Source: Anaerolineae bacterium
GTDB lineage: Bacteria; Chloroflexota; Anaerolineae; Epilineales; Epilineaceae
DNA length: 35,488 nt
Assembly (NCBI GenBank): GCA_029262755.1
Contig: JAJCYU010000010.1
Span: 1 to 35,488, forward strand
Direction: 5' to 3'
A program made the position numbers and the translations under genes. This document shows, in pieces, positions 13,909 to 21,656 of this stretch. The number at the start of each line of letters is the position of its first letter. Position 1 is the stretch's first letter. The notes under the pieces were generated by a model, which was not told the DNA's origin, did not search any database, and saw nothing but the letters and a program-made list of their open reading frames with translations.

Positions 13909-15687
13909 CTACTCTGCTCCGGAACCCGTGTCGTAGGCCGCCCAGCGGACCGGAAGCCACATTCGGGCGTACTCATGCTCCGTGCGGCGGTGCCAGCTCT
14001 CATCGGCTTTCTCGCTCAAGTAGTCCGGATCAAAGGGAAACCGTGGTTTCGGCCGTTCAAGGAACCATACCGTCGGCGCATGGTCGGCCAGGGCGCGCAG
14101 ACGCCTAGCCGCATCCTGTTCGGCTTCGCCGTAGCGCGGAATGCCAAGCCAGGTCTGCGTGCCGCCCGCGCGGCGATACTCGTAGGCGAAGGCGAATTGG
14201 ATCAACGGATCGTGCACGACGATAACGTCTGGTGCCGTGACCTCGCGGGCGAAGAAGTGTGCGGCTGCCCGCACATCGTCCTTGACATAATCCTCGCCGT
14301 GAAACTGGCGGGTGAGTTGCCGCGCTATGCTCCGCGATGCCGGCAATCCGATCCCAAGGGCCAACATGGCGCCGATCAGTATCGGCAATCGAGATGGCGC
14401 GGGCACGAAAGAGGACGCCCCAAGCGGGTTCGGGACCGGGGATGCCTGCGCCTCGGTAGAGCGACGTCGAGACGCGAACGTGCGGGTGCCCATACGGCCC
14501 AAGGCAGGGGCGAGCTGCGGGGGCAGCGAGAGGTTCCACAGCGCACCGATCCCCGCACCGGCGAGCAGGACGAAACCGGGGAACGCGACGAGCAGGTGGC
14601 GTGGCCCGTTGTAGATGGGGCGTAGCGACGAGAGCGCCGCGATCAGAACCAAGGGGAGCACGAGCATCGTCGTCGCCAGCGACGCGGCGCGACGCGCGGG
14701 TGGGTGCGCCCACACGGCCACGAGGCCCACCACCGCAAGCGCGACAAGCGGCCAGGAATCCGAGATCGAGTGGCGCAGCGTCGGCGATATGCCCACCGCG
14801 AAGGCATCCATAGCATGGCGCGCGATGGTCGCCCACGATACCGCTTCGAAGTCGATCTGCACGGGAGCCCGGAAGTACGACCATGCGCGGGGAGCCAGGG
14901 GCACGGCGAGCAGGGCGGCGACGGCTAGCAGCGCGGCCGACCGACGCAACCGTCGCGCCGTTGTTGCCGTCCCCGCCCGTCTCGCCACGGATTCGTCGTC
15001 CGCCGCAACACGGATCTCCCGTGCTGCGCTGTCCGGCCCAAGCCACGTCGAGGCGGCCAACCAAGAAACGTGGGCCGCGAGAGCCAGCAGCGCGAAGGCG
15101 TGGCTCGCGATCGAGATGCCCCACAGTCCGGTCCACGCCAGCCACCATCCTGTCCGCCGGCTGTCGGCCCGATCGGCCACATGGGCCAGCGCCCATGTCG
15201 TCGCCAGGATCGCCGCGATGAGGAGCGAATAGTTGCGCATCTCCTGGCTGTACCAGACGTGAATCGGCGACACCGTGAGCACGAGCGCCGCGCCGATGCC
15301 CGCTCGTCGCCCGAACCATGCGCGTCCCGCGCGCCACGCCAACGGCACACTCAACGCGCCGAGCAGCGCGCCGAGCCAGCGCAGCGCGAAGAGCCCTTCG
15401 CCGGCGAAGTGTCGTACGAGTGCCAGCAGGAGAAAATAGCCGGGCGGCGTCAGATCGCGAGTTGTTACACCGTCCACGACGATCGTATTAGCCAGAATGT
15501 CGCGCCAAGGCAGCGCCGCGCGGTACACGCTCAGGCCCTCGTCGCTCCAAAGCGATTGCGCCTCGATGCGGTATAGGCGGAGCGCGAAGGCAAGCGCGGT
15601 GAGCAACGCGATGAGCAGGGTCGCTGTCCATGTGACGTCCGGTCGACCCTCCTGGCGGGCGATCGCGGACGTTCGGGCGCCGCTCAC
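13909..15687 (-). CDS. GT-C family membrane glycosyltransferase (ArnT/PMT-like, RgtA/B/C/D domain)
   Basis: 592 residues, multi-spanning membrane protein. The first TM segment (about 20-37) is followed by LWSDEG with D49 and E50, the acidic motif in the first extracytoplasmic loop that GT-C enzymes use for catalysis. A second conserved region (TPPGYFLLLALVRHF, then SPIHVWYSQEMRNYSL) is typical of the PF13231-like glycosyltransferase group. These enzymes transfer sugars from polyprenyl-phosphate donors to lipid or protein acceptors outside the membrane; donor and acceptor are unknown. The GTG start at 15687 overlaps the TGA of the upstream gene (GTGA), so translation is coupled. The C-terminal ~150 residues are soluble, after the last TM segment near residue 430. 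Confidence 0.85.
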   Translation of the reverse strand: MSGARTSAIARQEGRPDVTWTATLLIALLTALAFALRLYRIEAQSLWSDEGLSVYRAALPWRDILANTIVVDGVTTRDLTPPGYFLLLALVRHFAGEGLFALRWLGALLGALSVPLAWRAGRAWFGRRAGIGAALVLTVSPIHVWYSQEMRNYSLLIAAILATTWALAHVADRADSRRTGWWLAWTGLWGISIASHAFALLALAAHVSWLAASTWLGPDSAAREIRVAADDESVARRAGTATTARRLRRSAALLAVAALLAVPLAPRAWSYFRAPVQIDFEAVSWATIARHAMDAFAVGISPTLRHSISDSWPLVALAVVGLVAVWAHPPARRAASLATTMLVLPLVLIAALSSLRPIYNGPRHLLVAFPGFVLLAGAGIGALWNLSLPPQLAPALGRMGTRTFASRRRSTEAQASPVPNPLGASSFVPAPSRLPILIGAMLALGIGLPASRSIARQLTRQFHGEDYVKDDVRAAAHFFAREVTAPDVIVVHDPLIQFAFAYEYRRAGGTQTWLGIPRYGEAEQDAARRLRALADHAPTVWFLERPKPRFPFDPDYLSEKADESWHRRTEHEYARMWLPVRWAAYDTGSGAE

Positions 15688-18275
15688 GGCTTGCGACCCG
15701 CTACGGCGGCCGCTGACGCGCTCGCGGAATTTGGGCGCGTAGAGACGGGTTGTAGCCCCGATACGAGGGACGACCTGGGTTCAAGCAGGGGGAATGCGCC
15801 GGCCCGCCCCCCCGCAGTCCCGGTTCGATTGCGTCCCGACTCGCAGGAAGCAATCTCCACGGTTGCAGGTAGCCGGACTGCGTCGAGCACCGGAGATTCC
15901 GCGTCCACGACGACGTCCGCGCGCACGCCGTCCGACAGCCGGTACATGCCGGTGACGAGCGCGTATGCCCCGGGCGCAAGCGCCCCATCCAACGTGAGGG
16001 TTCTGCGATCGAGAACCTGCTCGAACGGAGACCACAGGGACGTCGGGTATGGGGCGCCGTTGGCATCGTGAACGGAGCCGTCCGCTTGGGCGAGCGGCGC
16101 CGCCGGTGCGCCGGGCCATCGGCGCAGATGCAGCAAGACCTGCAGATCGAGGGGAGGCGCTGCATTGCCCGCTCTCCAGAGCAGACGCACCTCGATCTCG
16201 CTTCCCGCGCAGACCGGGCCCTCCGGCAGCGCATAGCCTACGAGCGTGATCGCATCATCGCAGCCCTCGGCCGTCTCGGATCGCTCCACGACGCCCCGTG
16301 CTCCACGGCGTGCTCCCACGTCGTTGCCGCCGCGGTCGTCCGCGCAGGTTGCGCGCAGCGGTGTCATATCCAACCCCGGCGGATCGTCGAAGACGGTAAG
16401 TCCGGCTTCGATGGGTCGCTGTGTCCAGCCCAGTGCATCCGGTTCGACCTTGACACGGGTCACGAATCCCGCGCCGACGGCGTTGCCCGCGGTGTCCGTC
16501 GCGGGCAGTCGGTCGAGGGTCGCGGGGTCGAAGAGGCCGACGGCCACGTCGTATACGGCCGGTGCGCGCACGTCCTCGCCGATCTGGACGTCGACGGTCT
16601 CGCAGAAAGCGGCGCCGGGTTCCCACGCGCGTGTCGATGCGTTGCCGTCGGCGGGCACGGAGTGGTAGCTTGCGACGAGCGCGTCGTCGGGACCGACCAA
16701 GTGCACGAGCACATGGACGTCCTTCGGGGTCCTGCGCAGGGGGCGCCAACAGACGGCCACGCGCCAAGCCGAGTCTACGGAGACACGCGATGTCTCCGGG
16801 CGAACGCTCAGCAGCTCCGCCACATCCCCGATCCGCCAGCCGACGGGATCCGGCAGTGTCTCAGTTTGTTGGGCGGAAAGCGTTGTCGGTGGCAGGAGAG
16901 CCGGACGGATCGCGCTCGATGGCGCGGAAATGGACCACATAGCCAACGCGGTCGCCGCGAGCAGCGCCAGGCGCGCTCGGGGCAGCACTGCGTGCAGACC
17001 GAGCGCAAGCAACACCGAGATCGAACCCGCGGCCGGAAAGAGCAGGCGGCCCCAATGGGCGCGCACCACCTGCATCCAGCCCACCAACGCTACGAGGACC
17101 GCGACGGCGAATGCCGCGAGCATGAGGACGGTGCGGACTCGTGGATCGCGTAGCCAGGCCGCGGCGCGCGTGAGCAGTCCTTGCGAATCAGCTTGCATCC
17201 AGCCTGAGCGAATCGAACGCCACCCGCCGTAGACCAGCCCCATCCCCGCCAAGAGACACACGGCGAAGACGACGCGATACACGGGGTCCGGCCAGCGGAT
17301 CGTGCCCCAACCAAAGGCCGCCCAATAGCTGAGAAAGAGCAGCCACGGTTCACCGTCTTCAACGAGCTTCGCGAGATCGGCCGGCACCTCGCGCGCCCAC
17401 GGCATGGCCAGATGCAGTTCGCTGCCGATAAAGGTGCCGTAGCCGAGCAGGTTGCGCGCGTACCACCAGCCACCCACGAGGCCAGCCGCAGCCAAGACGA
17501 TCGCCCCAAGACGCAACGCCGAGCGCAAGGGGGCCGTGAGGCCGGTGGACAGCGCCGCTAGCGCGACGATCGGTACGAGGGCAAGGGCACTGCTCTTGGT
17601 CAGAAGCGCCGCGCCGAGGGCAAGGCCGCACAGCAACGCGTTGCGGTCGCCCGGCGCTCGTAGCAAGACCGCGGCGCGCCACAGCGCTACCGTGCACGCG
17701 GCGGCGGCGGTTGTGTCGTTGCTCGCGGCGCCGGATAGGAACGCGAATTGGGGCGTGAAGGCCAAGACGGCAGCGGCGGCAAGCGCGACGTCCAGGCGAT
17801 GAGGCACGATGGTGGCGTCGAGTTGATACGTCGCCCAGTCTGCCACGACGGCCATGAGCGCCGCGATGAGACGCGCCGCCAGGAGCCCGCGCATCAGAGG
17901 CGAGCCGAAGGGGGCGTCCCACGGTCCGTGCAAGGCGTAGTTGTGGTTGCGCGCCTCAAGCCCGACGCCGCCCCAGCGCCCCGGATTCTCAACGAATGCG
18001 GTGTCCATGTCCGAGGTAGAGAAGGGCGCGGATGCGATCGCCGCGAGCACGTAGTACAGCGGCGGTTGGCTGGCTTCTTGGTTGACCCAGGTCTCCAGCA
18101 TGTCAACGGTTGGAGGAGGCAGCCGCTGCTCCGTCTTAAGCCATGTGACATAGCCAAGATGCCAAGGCTCATCCGGCGCTTCCCATGCCGGGGTCAGCCA
18201 CGCGAATGTGAGTGCAAGGGCGCTTTGGACGAGCAAGACGAAGAACAGCCCGCGCCGCGCCCCGGCGTCACTCAC
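15684..18275 (-). CDS. DUF2142/GT-C-like integral membrane protein with soluble C-terminal domain
   Basis: 863 residues from GTG 18275, which overlaps the TGA of the HD gene by 4 nt. TM1 (about 10-28) leads to WEAPDEPWHLGY with D35, E36 and H39, the first-loop acidic motif of DUF2142 and related GT-C transferases. About ten further hydrophobic segments run to around residue 480. The last ~350 residues form an extracytoplasmic beta-rich region with several Cys, probably two related beta-sandwich domains (each has a 'V-x-V-L-x-H-L' strand followed by '...LAQ.DG' or 'VAS...' and a 'PG.Y.l..Gly/Val.y' ending). The role is probably polyprenyl-linked sugar transfer to an envelope glycan; substrates are unknown. 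It may act together with the GT-C protein encoded directly downstream. Confidence 0.8.
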   Translation of the reverse strand: MSDAGARRGLFFVLLVQSALALTFAWLTPAWEAPDEPWHLGYVTWLKTEQRLPPPTVDMLETWVNQEASQPPLYYVLAAIASAPFSTSDMDTAFVENPGRWGGVGLEARNHNYALHGPWDAPFGSPLMRGLLAARLIAALMAVVADWATYQLDATIVPHRLDVALAAAAVLAFTPQFAFLSGAASNDTTAAAACTVALWRAAVLLRAPGDRNALLCGLALGAALLTKSSALALVPIVALAALSTGLTAPLRSALRLGAIVLAAAGLVGGWWYARNLLGYGTFIGSELHLAMPWAREVPADLAKLVEDGEPWLLFLSYWAAFGWGTIRWPDPVYRVVFAVCLLAGMGLVYGGWRSIRSGWMQADSQGLLTRAAAWLRDPRVRTVLMLAAFAVAVLVALVGWMQVVRAHWGRLLFPAAGSISVLLALGLHAVLPRARLALLAATALAMWSISAPSSAIRPALLPPTTLSAQQTETLPDPVGWRIGDVAELLSVRPETSRVSVDSAWRVAVCWRPLRRTPKDVHVLVHLVGPDDALVASYHSVPADGNASTRAWEPGAAFCETVDVQIGEDVRAPAVYDVAVGLFDPATLDRLPATDTAGNAVGAGFVTRVKVEPDALGWTQRPIEAGLTVFDDPPGLDMTPLRATCADDRGGNDVGARRGARGVVERSETAEGCDDAITLVGYALPEGPVCAGSEIEVRLLWRAGNAAPPLDLQVLLHLRRWPGAPAAPLAQADGSVHDANGAPYPTSLWSPFEQVLDRRTLTLDGALAPGAYALVTGMYRLSDGVRADVVVDAESPVLDAVRLPATVEIASCESGRNRTGTAGGRAGAFPLLEPRSSLVSGLQPVSTRPNSASASAAAVAGRKP

Positions 18276-19069
18276 GCGCCGATACCGTCCCCAGACACGC
18301 CCTCTGCACCGGGCGCGTCGTCCATCGGACCCGGCCGATCTCCTTGGATGTCGCTCTGCGGTGCCGACTCGAGAAAGCCCCGCTGTTCGGCTACGTCGAT
18401 CAGCGCCGTCGTCACCGCTCCGAGGCTCCCTGAGCCCCGTGCTACATCGCGGTTGGCCAGACGTACGCGGTCGGCCGTGACGCCATAGTGGCGCCACTGG
18501 CTGCCGGCCGTGAGCAGGTTGTGCAACAAAGGCTGAATCCGGTCCACGGCGCCGGCAAAGCGAGCCTCCGGACTCTCCTTGGCCTCAAACTCGTCCCAGA
18601 GCGCGCGCAGCTCAGCGCCTTGATCGGCGGGCAAGAGGCCGAAGATGCGCTCGGCGGCCGCCGTCTCCCTGGCTTCCTTGTCCTGGTAGCCGACCGTGTC
18701 GTACAAGAAGGTGTCGCCGGCATCGATCTCGACGAGGTCGTGCACGAGCAACATGCGCAGCACGCGGCCGGCATCGAGCGAAGAGCCTTGCGCATCCGAG
18801 GCGTCGTTCGGCGCTCCCTCTGCTGCCGCGCCGCTGCCATGCGCGCCGGCATGTTCGAGTAGCACCATCGCCATCAAGGCCTGATGCCACGAATGCTCGG
18901 CGCTGTTCTCGCGACGGGAACCGTCCACGAGCAAGTTCCGTCGCTGGATCGACTTCAGCCGATCGATCTCCACCACGAAGCGCAGTTGATCCCGCAATCG
19001 AGGGTCCTCGACGAGGAGCTGGAGCACTTCATCCACGTCGGGTGCGTGGAGCCGCGGCTCAGCCTTCAC
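18272..19069 (-). CDS. HD-domain phosphohydrolase (YfbR/HDDC2-like nucleotidase)
   Basis: 265 residues. The HD signature is complete: R43/R44 and H59 in RRENSAEHSWH, H110-D111 in LVHDLVEID, and the distal D176 in AGAVDRIQP. This pattern is that of the YfbR/HDDC2 group, which dephosphorylates 5'-deoxynucleotides. Between helix segments there is an unusual low-complexity insert (about residues 75-98, Gly/Ala/Ser/Asp-rich), and the last ~30 residues are also low complexity. The start is GTG 19069, overlapping the end of the formiminotransferase gene by 11 nt; the end overlaps the next gene by 4 nt. The substrate is not determined by sequence. Confidence 0.85.
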   Translation of the reverse strand: MKAEPRLHAPDVDEVLQLLVEDPRLRDQLRFVVEIDRLKSIQRRNLLVDGSRRENSAEHSWHQALMAMVLLEHAGAHGSGAAAEGAPNDASDAQGSSLDAGRVLRMLLVHDLVEIDAGDTFLYDTVGYQDKEARETAAAERIFGLLPADQGAELRALWDEFEAKESPEARFAGAVDRIQPLLHNLLTAGSQWRHYGVTADRVRLANRDVARGSGSLGAVTTALIDVAEQRGFLESAPQSDIQGDRPGPMDDAPGAEGVSGDGIGA

Positions 19070-20874: not shown

Positions 20875-20941
20875 CTCCCGCGGACCCGTCTGATTGGACC
20901 AACACCTATTGCGCAGACACGTACTCAGGGAGTCGAACCTC

Positions 20942-21586
20942 ATGCGAAGACAGTGGATGATATTCGGGCTCGCGGCGCTACTCGGCGCCTGCGGTAGCCC
21001 CCAGGCCCCGGAGTCGGCGAACGCGCCCGACCCCGTGGTTGTGGAAGAAGCCGCGGAAGCGGCCGACGGCATGGCGGAGATGGCCGTTGACGCAGCTGCG
21101 GAAGCGGCGGATGCAGCGGAAGCCGCCGGCGAAGCCGCTGCCGACGCAGCGGACGCGGCAGCGGCTGCCGTAGACGCAGCAGAGGACGCGGACGACGCAG
21201 CGGAGGCCGCGGCCGACGACGCGGACGGCGAAGACGGCATGGCCTCGGAGTCCGATGCGGCTCCGATGGGCTTTACTGCCACCGATCCTTCGACCGTCGT
21301 TCTGGCATCGGGCGGCCCGCAGTTTGTGAAGTTCTACGCCGAGTGGTGACCGACCTGCAACGCAATGCTGCCCGTCGTGCACGGGCTTGAAGAGCAGTTC
21401 GGCGACCAGATCCAGTTTACGTACATCGATATCGATGATCCGGCGAGCGCTGAGATCAAGAGCGCGCTTGGGTACGCCCATCAGCCCGAGTACTACTTGC
21501 TCGATGGGGAGGGCAACCAAGTAGGGGATTGGTCCGGTTTCGTCCAGGAAGACGTCCTGGCCGCGGCCTTCAACAGCGTGCAGTAA
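20942..21586 (+). CDS. Lipoprotein thioredoxin, predicted selenoprotein (in-frame TGA = Sec136)
   Basis: 214 residues if TGA at 21347-21349 is read as selenocysteine. ATG 20942 is chosen because AGGGAG (20927-20932) precedes it at 9 nt and it begins a lipoprotein signal with C17 (LLGAC). A ~75-residue Ala/Asp/Glu-rich linker follows, then a thioredoxin fold: VKFYAEW, the TGA, then PTC (motif W-U-P-T-C, Sec136 and Cys139), LPVVHGLEEQFG, YIDIDDP, and the conserved Pro in AHQPEYYLLDGEGN. Coding continues in the same frame for 79 codons after the TGA with clear thioredoxin sequence, so the TGA is not the natural end. A SECIS-like hairpin lies at 21370-21386. Likely role: extracytoplasmic thiol-disulfide exchange. 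A nonsense mutation or sequencing error (TGC or TGT to TGA) is the alternative. Confidence 0.85.
21370..21386 (+). promoter_or_regulatory. Bacterial SECIS-like hairpin
   Basis: A perfect 6-bp stem GCCCGT/ACGGGC with the 5-nt loop CGTGC lies 20 nt after the TGA; the apical loop begins 26 nt after it. The stem length, the distance (16-37 nt in the known bacterial consensus) and a G within the first two loop bases all fit. It overlaps codons for LPVVHG. Confidence 0.7.
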
Positions 21587-21620: not shown

Positions 21621-21656
21621 GCAAACGGGGGGTCGCTTCGGCGGCCCCTCGTTTGC
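21621..21656. terminator. Strong hairpin terminator with UUCG loop
   Basis: A 16-bp stem (two G-U pairs) capped by TTCG is followed by GTTCGTTTT. It lies 34 nt after the selenoprotein stop and serves as a bidirectional terminator towards the convergent permease gene. Confidence 0.88.

Follow-up and report, generated by a model that had tools for sequence, protein, structure and literature searches.

A predicted membrane-tethered selenocysteine thioredoxin of Anaerolineae, with relatives that carry two active-site UGA codons

Thioredoxins of the DsbE/ResA/TlpA type belong to the AhpC-TSA/Redoxin-type branch. Thioredoxins that contain selenocysteine (Sec) in a UxxC active site (Pfam PF00085) are already among the known selenoproteins in a 2026 inventory (PMC13188914), and a Global Ocean Sampling selenoprotein, Trx-like 3, has been weakly tied to cd02950 (PMC2398784). 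The inventory assigns active sites with two Sec residues, UxxU, to proteins of the Prx-like, MerA-like and FmdB-like kinds; in a literature search limited to open papers, we found no UxxU entry for PF00085 in its accessible part (PMC13188914).

The locus described here lies in a 35,488-nt stretch of DNA, hereafter the window. Its plus strand carries a complete open reading frame of 214 residues (20942..21586), which starts with the ATG at 20942, 9 nt downstream of a Shine-Dalgarno-like GGGAG (20928..20932), and ends with the TAA at 21584-21586, with exactly one in-frame TGA in between. A preliminary description had placed this single TGA at the first redox Cys of a lipoprotein thioredoxin frame, and had noted a terminator after the gene; indeed, the TGA is codon 136 (21347..21349), and a terminator-like hairpin with a T-rich tail is present at 21621..21656 on the same strand. 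Translated through the TGA, the product reads FYAEWUPTCNAM, and both the sequence and the homologues assign Sec136 to the first active-site position (W-U-P-T-C) and Cys139 (TGC, 21356..21358) to the resolving position of UxxC. The gene is on its own, flanked on either side by an opposite-strand gene: one for a formiminotransferase-cyclodeaminase, the other for an MFS transporter. Elsewhere in the window (13909-18497), two neighbouring minus-strand genes encode PMT_2-type glycosyltransferase domains.

The frame opens with a start of the lipoprotein-signal type, MRRQWMIFGLAALLGAC..., in which the signal peptide MRRQWMIFGLAALLGA-C17 (20942..20992), judged by eye, ends in the lipobox L-G-A-C, whose cysteine, C17, is presumed to carry the lipid. 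Lipobox-type N-termini are common among the homologues, in line with the lipoprotein-type start proposed in the preliminary description: a strict automatic filter passes 45 of 71 UxxC and 15 of 19 UxxU homologues, while missing some true signals, that of the window protein among them. A related UxxC branch (L114, L117, L120, L121, L123, L124 and L127) has N-terminal transmembrane segments in place of the lipobox, and a Cys-form extracytoplasmic thioredoxin encoded as a paralogue in the host genome (L107, G000:C258; FHADWCHVCQEV) has a membrane segment there. Residues 18-109 (20993..21268) form a low-complexity stalk with 40 Ala, 15 Asp and 12 Glu among its 92 residues. The Ala/Asp-rich stalk described earlier thus stands for the window sequence; across the family, what is shared is a low-complexity linker of varying composition.

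The stalk leads into a thioredoxin domain (residues 110-214, 21269..21583), identified by three approaches. Read through the TGA, residues 120-209 match Pfam Thioredoxin (PF00085; 2.3e-10, 40.8 bits against a cut-off of 23.5). An AlphaFold model, with Cys replacing Sec, adopts the thioredoxin fold (pLDDT 95.1, pTM 0.88), and the best PDB matches of this model in Foldseek are thioredoxins (TM up to 0.86). U136 and C139 open the active-site helix H28-32 of the domain model, and Pro182 of a Q-P pair (21485..21487), an invariant column of the alignment (P73 of A1), is presumed to adjoin the active site in the cis geometry inferred from the thioredoxin family. The protein, with its lipoprotein signal, scores 38.9 bits against a cut-off of 96.8 for the cytoplasmic TrxA equivalog TIGR01068, and falls below the DsbE/ResA models TIGR00385 (24.3 against 123 bits) and NF002854 (14 against 170). 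The family assignment bears on whether the protein could be peroxidase-like, with Sec reducing peroxides rather than disulfides. Sec is frequent in peroxidatic chemistry and the window protein has a weak similarity to Redoxin, but the best family above its cut-off is Thioredoxin rather than Prx or AhpC-TSA, the fold matches thioredoxins, and the WUxxC motif lacks the PxxxTxxU peroxiredoxin signature given in PMC13188914. We therefore regard a peroxidase as unlikely, and favour a thioredoxin.

Does the TGA encode Sec? The host assembly contains selA (3.2e-152), selB (9.9e-103), selD (5.4e-110) and a tRNA-Sec with the anticodon TCA, and the host SelD is Sec-coded itself (L017:1501-2436, G000:C109), with a TGA in its active-site loop, SSCAGUASKMGP. 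A genome-wide reassignment that makes TGA a Trp or Gly codon, known from codes 4 and 25, would also account for the one internal TGA of the frame at 20942-21586. Yet none of the other 15 window frames that were checked has an internal TGA, five of the 15 end in TGA, and TGG codons are many; TGA is a normal stop there, and reassignment fits poorly with a redox position where Cys and TGA replace each other, and with the Sec insertion element (SECIS) described below. It was rejected, and its probability is close to nil.

We then consider the homologues. With stops read through, 298 genomes of the same class were searched; homologues turned up in 250, and we examined 115 domains, comprising 71 distinct UxxC, 19 UxxU and 25 CxxC forms. 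The 24 closest matches in this search carry TGA at the same active-site column, and every in-frame TGA in the aligned domain, across about 90 homologues, is placed on the first active-site Cys or on the first and the second together. The nearest subfamily has Cys forms in assemblies named as Anaerolineae or Anaerolineales; the host is accordingly a member of Chloroflexota, as the preliminary description had held probable, and most likely of Anaerolineae. A sample of 201 genomes from across the phylum yielded no strong match (E up to 1e-12) beyond the class. A contig scan with a single-protein query gave no match; an alignment-based contig scan used a Cys-containing peptide pattern, which can return Cys forms only, so that its counts are uninformative on the frequency of Sec. 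Since the host assembly is fragmented (428 contigs, 84% complete), the TGA might be thought a misread TGC or TGT, or a nonsense mutation in a decaying gene. However, independent genomes of the class bear TGA at exactly this codon, which makes sequencing error untenable, the sequence downstream of the TGA stays open and conserved in the homologues, and the SECIS is under selection. Decay or error was rejected on the same-codon TGA and is, in our estimate, highly improbable. A further reading is that the UGA acts mainly as a selenium-dependent switch, and that a truncated, stalk-only lipoprotein made in the absence of selenium has a role of its own. The 135-residue truncated product would still be an intact lipoprotein, and to our knowledge termination in bacteria always competes with Sec insertion. 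But the stalk is low in complexity and unconserved between homologues, while it is the domain after the UGA that is conserved, and we consider such a switch very unlikely. Decoding of the UGA as Sec for the sake of the full-length thioredoxin remains our preferred reading.

The distribution of selA follows that of the TGA forms. selA was found in 250 of the 298 class genomes, and its share across this sample is very high. Among the matches listed, TGA forms occur in 81 genomes, 79 of which contain selA; for genomes with Cys forms only, the figure is 16 of 29 (Fisher p 1.9e-7, uncorrected for relatedness and computed on incomplete assemblies). The two genomes with a TGA form and no detected selA, G247 (91% complete) and G047 (81%), possibly lack it through incomplete assembly.

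Downstream of the UGA, the window gene carries a SECIS upper stem-loop (21370..21386, plus strand), supported by pairing, covariation and a held-out model. The hairpin, GCCCGU-CGUGC-ACGGGC, has a 6-bp stem and a CGUGC loop that begins 26 nt after the UGA, within a 60-nt stretch whose minimum free energy is -22.2. This geometry is within the bacterial SECIS (bSECIS) rules given in PMC13188914: a loop of 3-9 nt with G in the first two loop positions, a spacing of 16-37 nt and a stem of 4-16 bp. At the exact offset, at least five of the six pairs form in 88 of 90 TGA genes, compared with 27.9 expected under synonymous recoding and with 7 of 25 Cys genes (p 1.7e-13), and GU occupies loop positions 2 and 3 in all 90. 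The stem covaries at pair 4 (C-G/U-A/G-C), pair 5 (A-U/G-C) and pair 6 (U-A/C-G), with a covariation score of 0.587 against 0.245 when shuffled and at most 0.134 when slid; paired cells amount to 97%, against at most 47% when slid. It is this position-specific stem that separates TGA from Cys forms, which the folding energy of the 60-nt stretch fails to do (Mann-Whitney p 0.25). When 42 other genes, the window gene left out, were used to train a covariance model, the window copy scored 61.3 bits (E 2.7e-18) and nothing else in the window or the genome came close, although part of this score reflects coding-sequence similarity. Scanning the whole host genome with the SECIS model gave no second convincing match, the next one (E 0.008, L197) being in no credible selenoprotein frame, and Rfam returned no SECIS match, just chance microRNA models.

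Translated, the hairpin is the conserved peptide P-[IV]-V-[HN]-G-L that follows the active site, so that part of the protein conservation is probably an imprint of the SECIS. A Cys orthologue in a genome in which no selA was found (L195:5238-5285, G287) has UGC in place of the UGA and retains a recognisable hairpin with broken pairing (34.6 bits). Judged from its sequence, this degenerate hairpin is likely a fossil of an earlier Sec state, left by a Sec-to-Cys reversion. Taken together, the proposal of the preliminary description that the TGA encodes Sec finds support in the host genes it had suggested looking for, selA, selB, selD and tRNA-Sec, all present; in the association with selA; in the conserved SECIS; and in the exchange of Cys and TGA at that column among homologues, which are not decayed elsewhere. 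We conclude that the window gene very probably encodes a Sec-decoded, membrane-anchored extracytoplasmic thioredoxin.

Neither the SECIS hairpin nor the UxxU forms figured in the preliminary description. In 19 relatives (L048-L066, e.g. L052, L054 and L056), UGA occupies both active-site positions, nine bases apart, and one SECIS-like hairpin follows both, at a distance of about 26 nt from the first UGA and 17 nt from the second. The three UxxU proteins that were scanned all match PF00085. Their phylogeny was read from a tree of 95 columns and 136 rows with weak deep forks, which we used only for change counts and for a few strongly supported groups. Fourteen of the 19 cluster together with support (SH-aLRT 97), L048 pairs with a UxxC protein as its sister (99), and another mixed group contains a further three. 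Because UxxU is spread over separate groups, it arose more than once, at least three times on this tree. In these relatives a single hairpin would thus read two UGAs, creating a potential diselenide site.

What might such a protein do? In the mechanism that we propose, SelB bound to the hairpin would deliver Sec-tRNA-Sec to UGA136, and the product would leave the cytoplasm, receive a lipid at Cys17 and be kept at a distance from the membrane by its long Ala/Asp/Glu stalk. Sec136 would then attack disulfides, or oxidised thiols, of extracytoplasmic proteins, and Cys139 would resolve the mixed selenosulfide. The resulting Se-S bond would be re-reduced, most plausibly by cytoplasmic electrons passed through the host DsbD. 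The host genome encodes a full DsbD (L173), and from its presence we put this electron route at perhaps even chances.

Gene neighbourhood revealed no common partner of the window gene, and its neighbours are uninformative on the substrate. P-type metal ATPases adjoin L177, a member of the host genome's own family, and L132, where a Cys-form thioredoxin is followed by a cytochrome c and two metal-transporting ATPases (L132:3989-8301), an arrangement common to several Anaerolineales. One UxxU thioredoxin is clustered with two cytochromes c, a heavy-metal P-type ATPase and a DsbA-like (Thioredoxin_4) protein (L193:1825-7295), and a UxxC thioredoxin gene is followed, at a distance of a few kb, by soxY and soxZ genes (L179:8977-9814). 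These neighbourhoods fit with the keeping of extracytoplasmic thiols in the reduced state and, being varied, indicate no single pathway. They also raise a refinement of our reading, in which the protein, instead of reducing disulfides in general, is dedicated to a specialised extracytoplasmic process: copper or cytochrome maturation, or sulfur oxidation by Sox. The metal ATPases beside L177 and L132, the cytochrome c, metal ATPase and DsbA-like protein beside the UxxU form of L193, and SoxYZ beside L179 speak for it, but the window gene has no such neighbours, the contexts differ among relatives, and some common neighbours reflect species relatedness. We hold this refinement to be possible, if rather doubtful, and retain general disulfide reduction as the working reading.

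For the class as a whole, we think it fairly probable that Anaerolineae possess class-restricted, tethered extracytoplasmic Sec-thioredoxins in which one SECIS can decode two UGAs and diselenide UxxU sites have originated repeatedly, the window gene being a UxxC member. Standard annotation would cut such genes at the stalk, and a redox family that is widespread in a large environmental class would go unseen. Three questions could be put to the series that nature provides in the UxxC, UxxU and CxxC homologues and their matched SECIS states: why selenium persists at an extracytoplasmic thiol-disulfide site, how one SECIS serves a pair of UGAs, and by what path Sec gives way to Cys upon loss of selA.

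How, then, does this family compare with known systems? The preliminary description held that thioredoxin-like selenoproteins are known and that the lipoprotein form is new; to this novelty, which stands, are added the class restriction of the family, the match between SECIS and selA states across it, and the UxxU branches, the family being large and apparently uncatalogued. Like DsbE/ResA/TlpA-type proteins, the window protein would be a membrane-anchored extracytoplasmic thioredoxin fold, presumably reduced by DsbD or CcdA, but it has Sec where they have Cys, and its similarity to them is far below the family cut-offs. With the known Sec-thioredoxin, as presented in the inventory, it shares the Pfam Thioredoxin domain, UxxC with Sec as the nucleophile and a bSECIS inside the coding region; it differs in its predicted export as a long-stalked lipoprotein, in a score short of the NCBIfam TrxA cut-off, and in belonging to a family that is restricted to one class in our phylum sample and that includes UxxU forms. 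Among the Global Ocean Sampling selenoproteins, its description resembles that of Trx-like 1 and Trx-like 3, both thioredoxin-like and UxxC (PMC2398784). Finally, the UxxU forms resemble Prx-like 2 and the Prx-like thiol:disulfide oxidoreductase in that their thioredoxin-like fold carries a pair of Sec residues two apart (PMC2398784; PMC13188914), whereas those Prx-like UxxU proteins are related to AhpC-TSA or SelP-N and the UxxU forms described here match PF00085, alongside a window protein that is itself UxxC.
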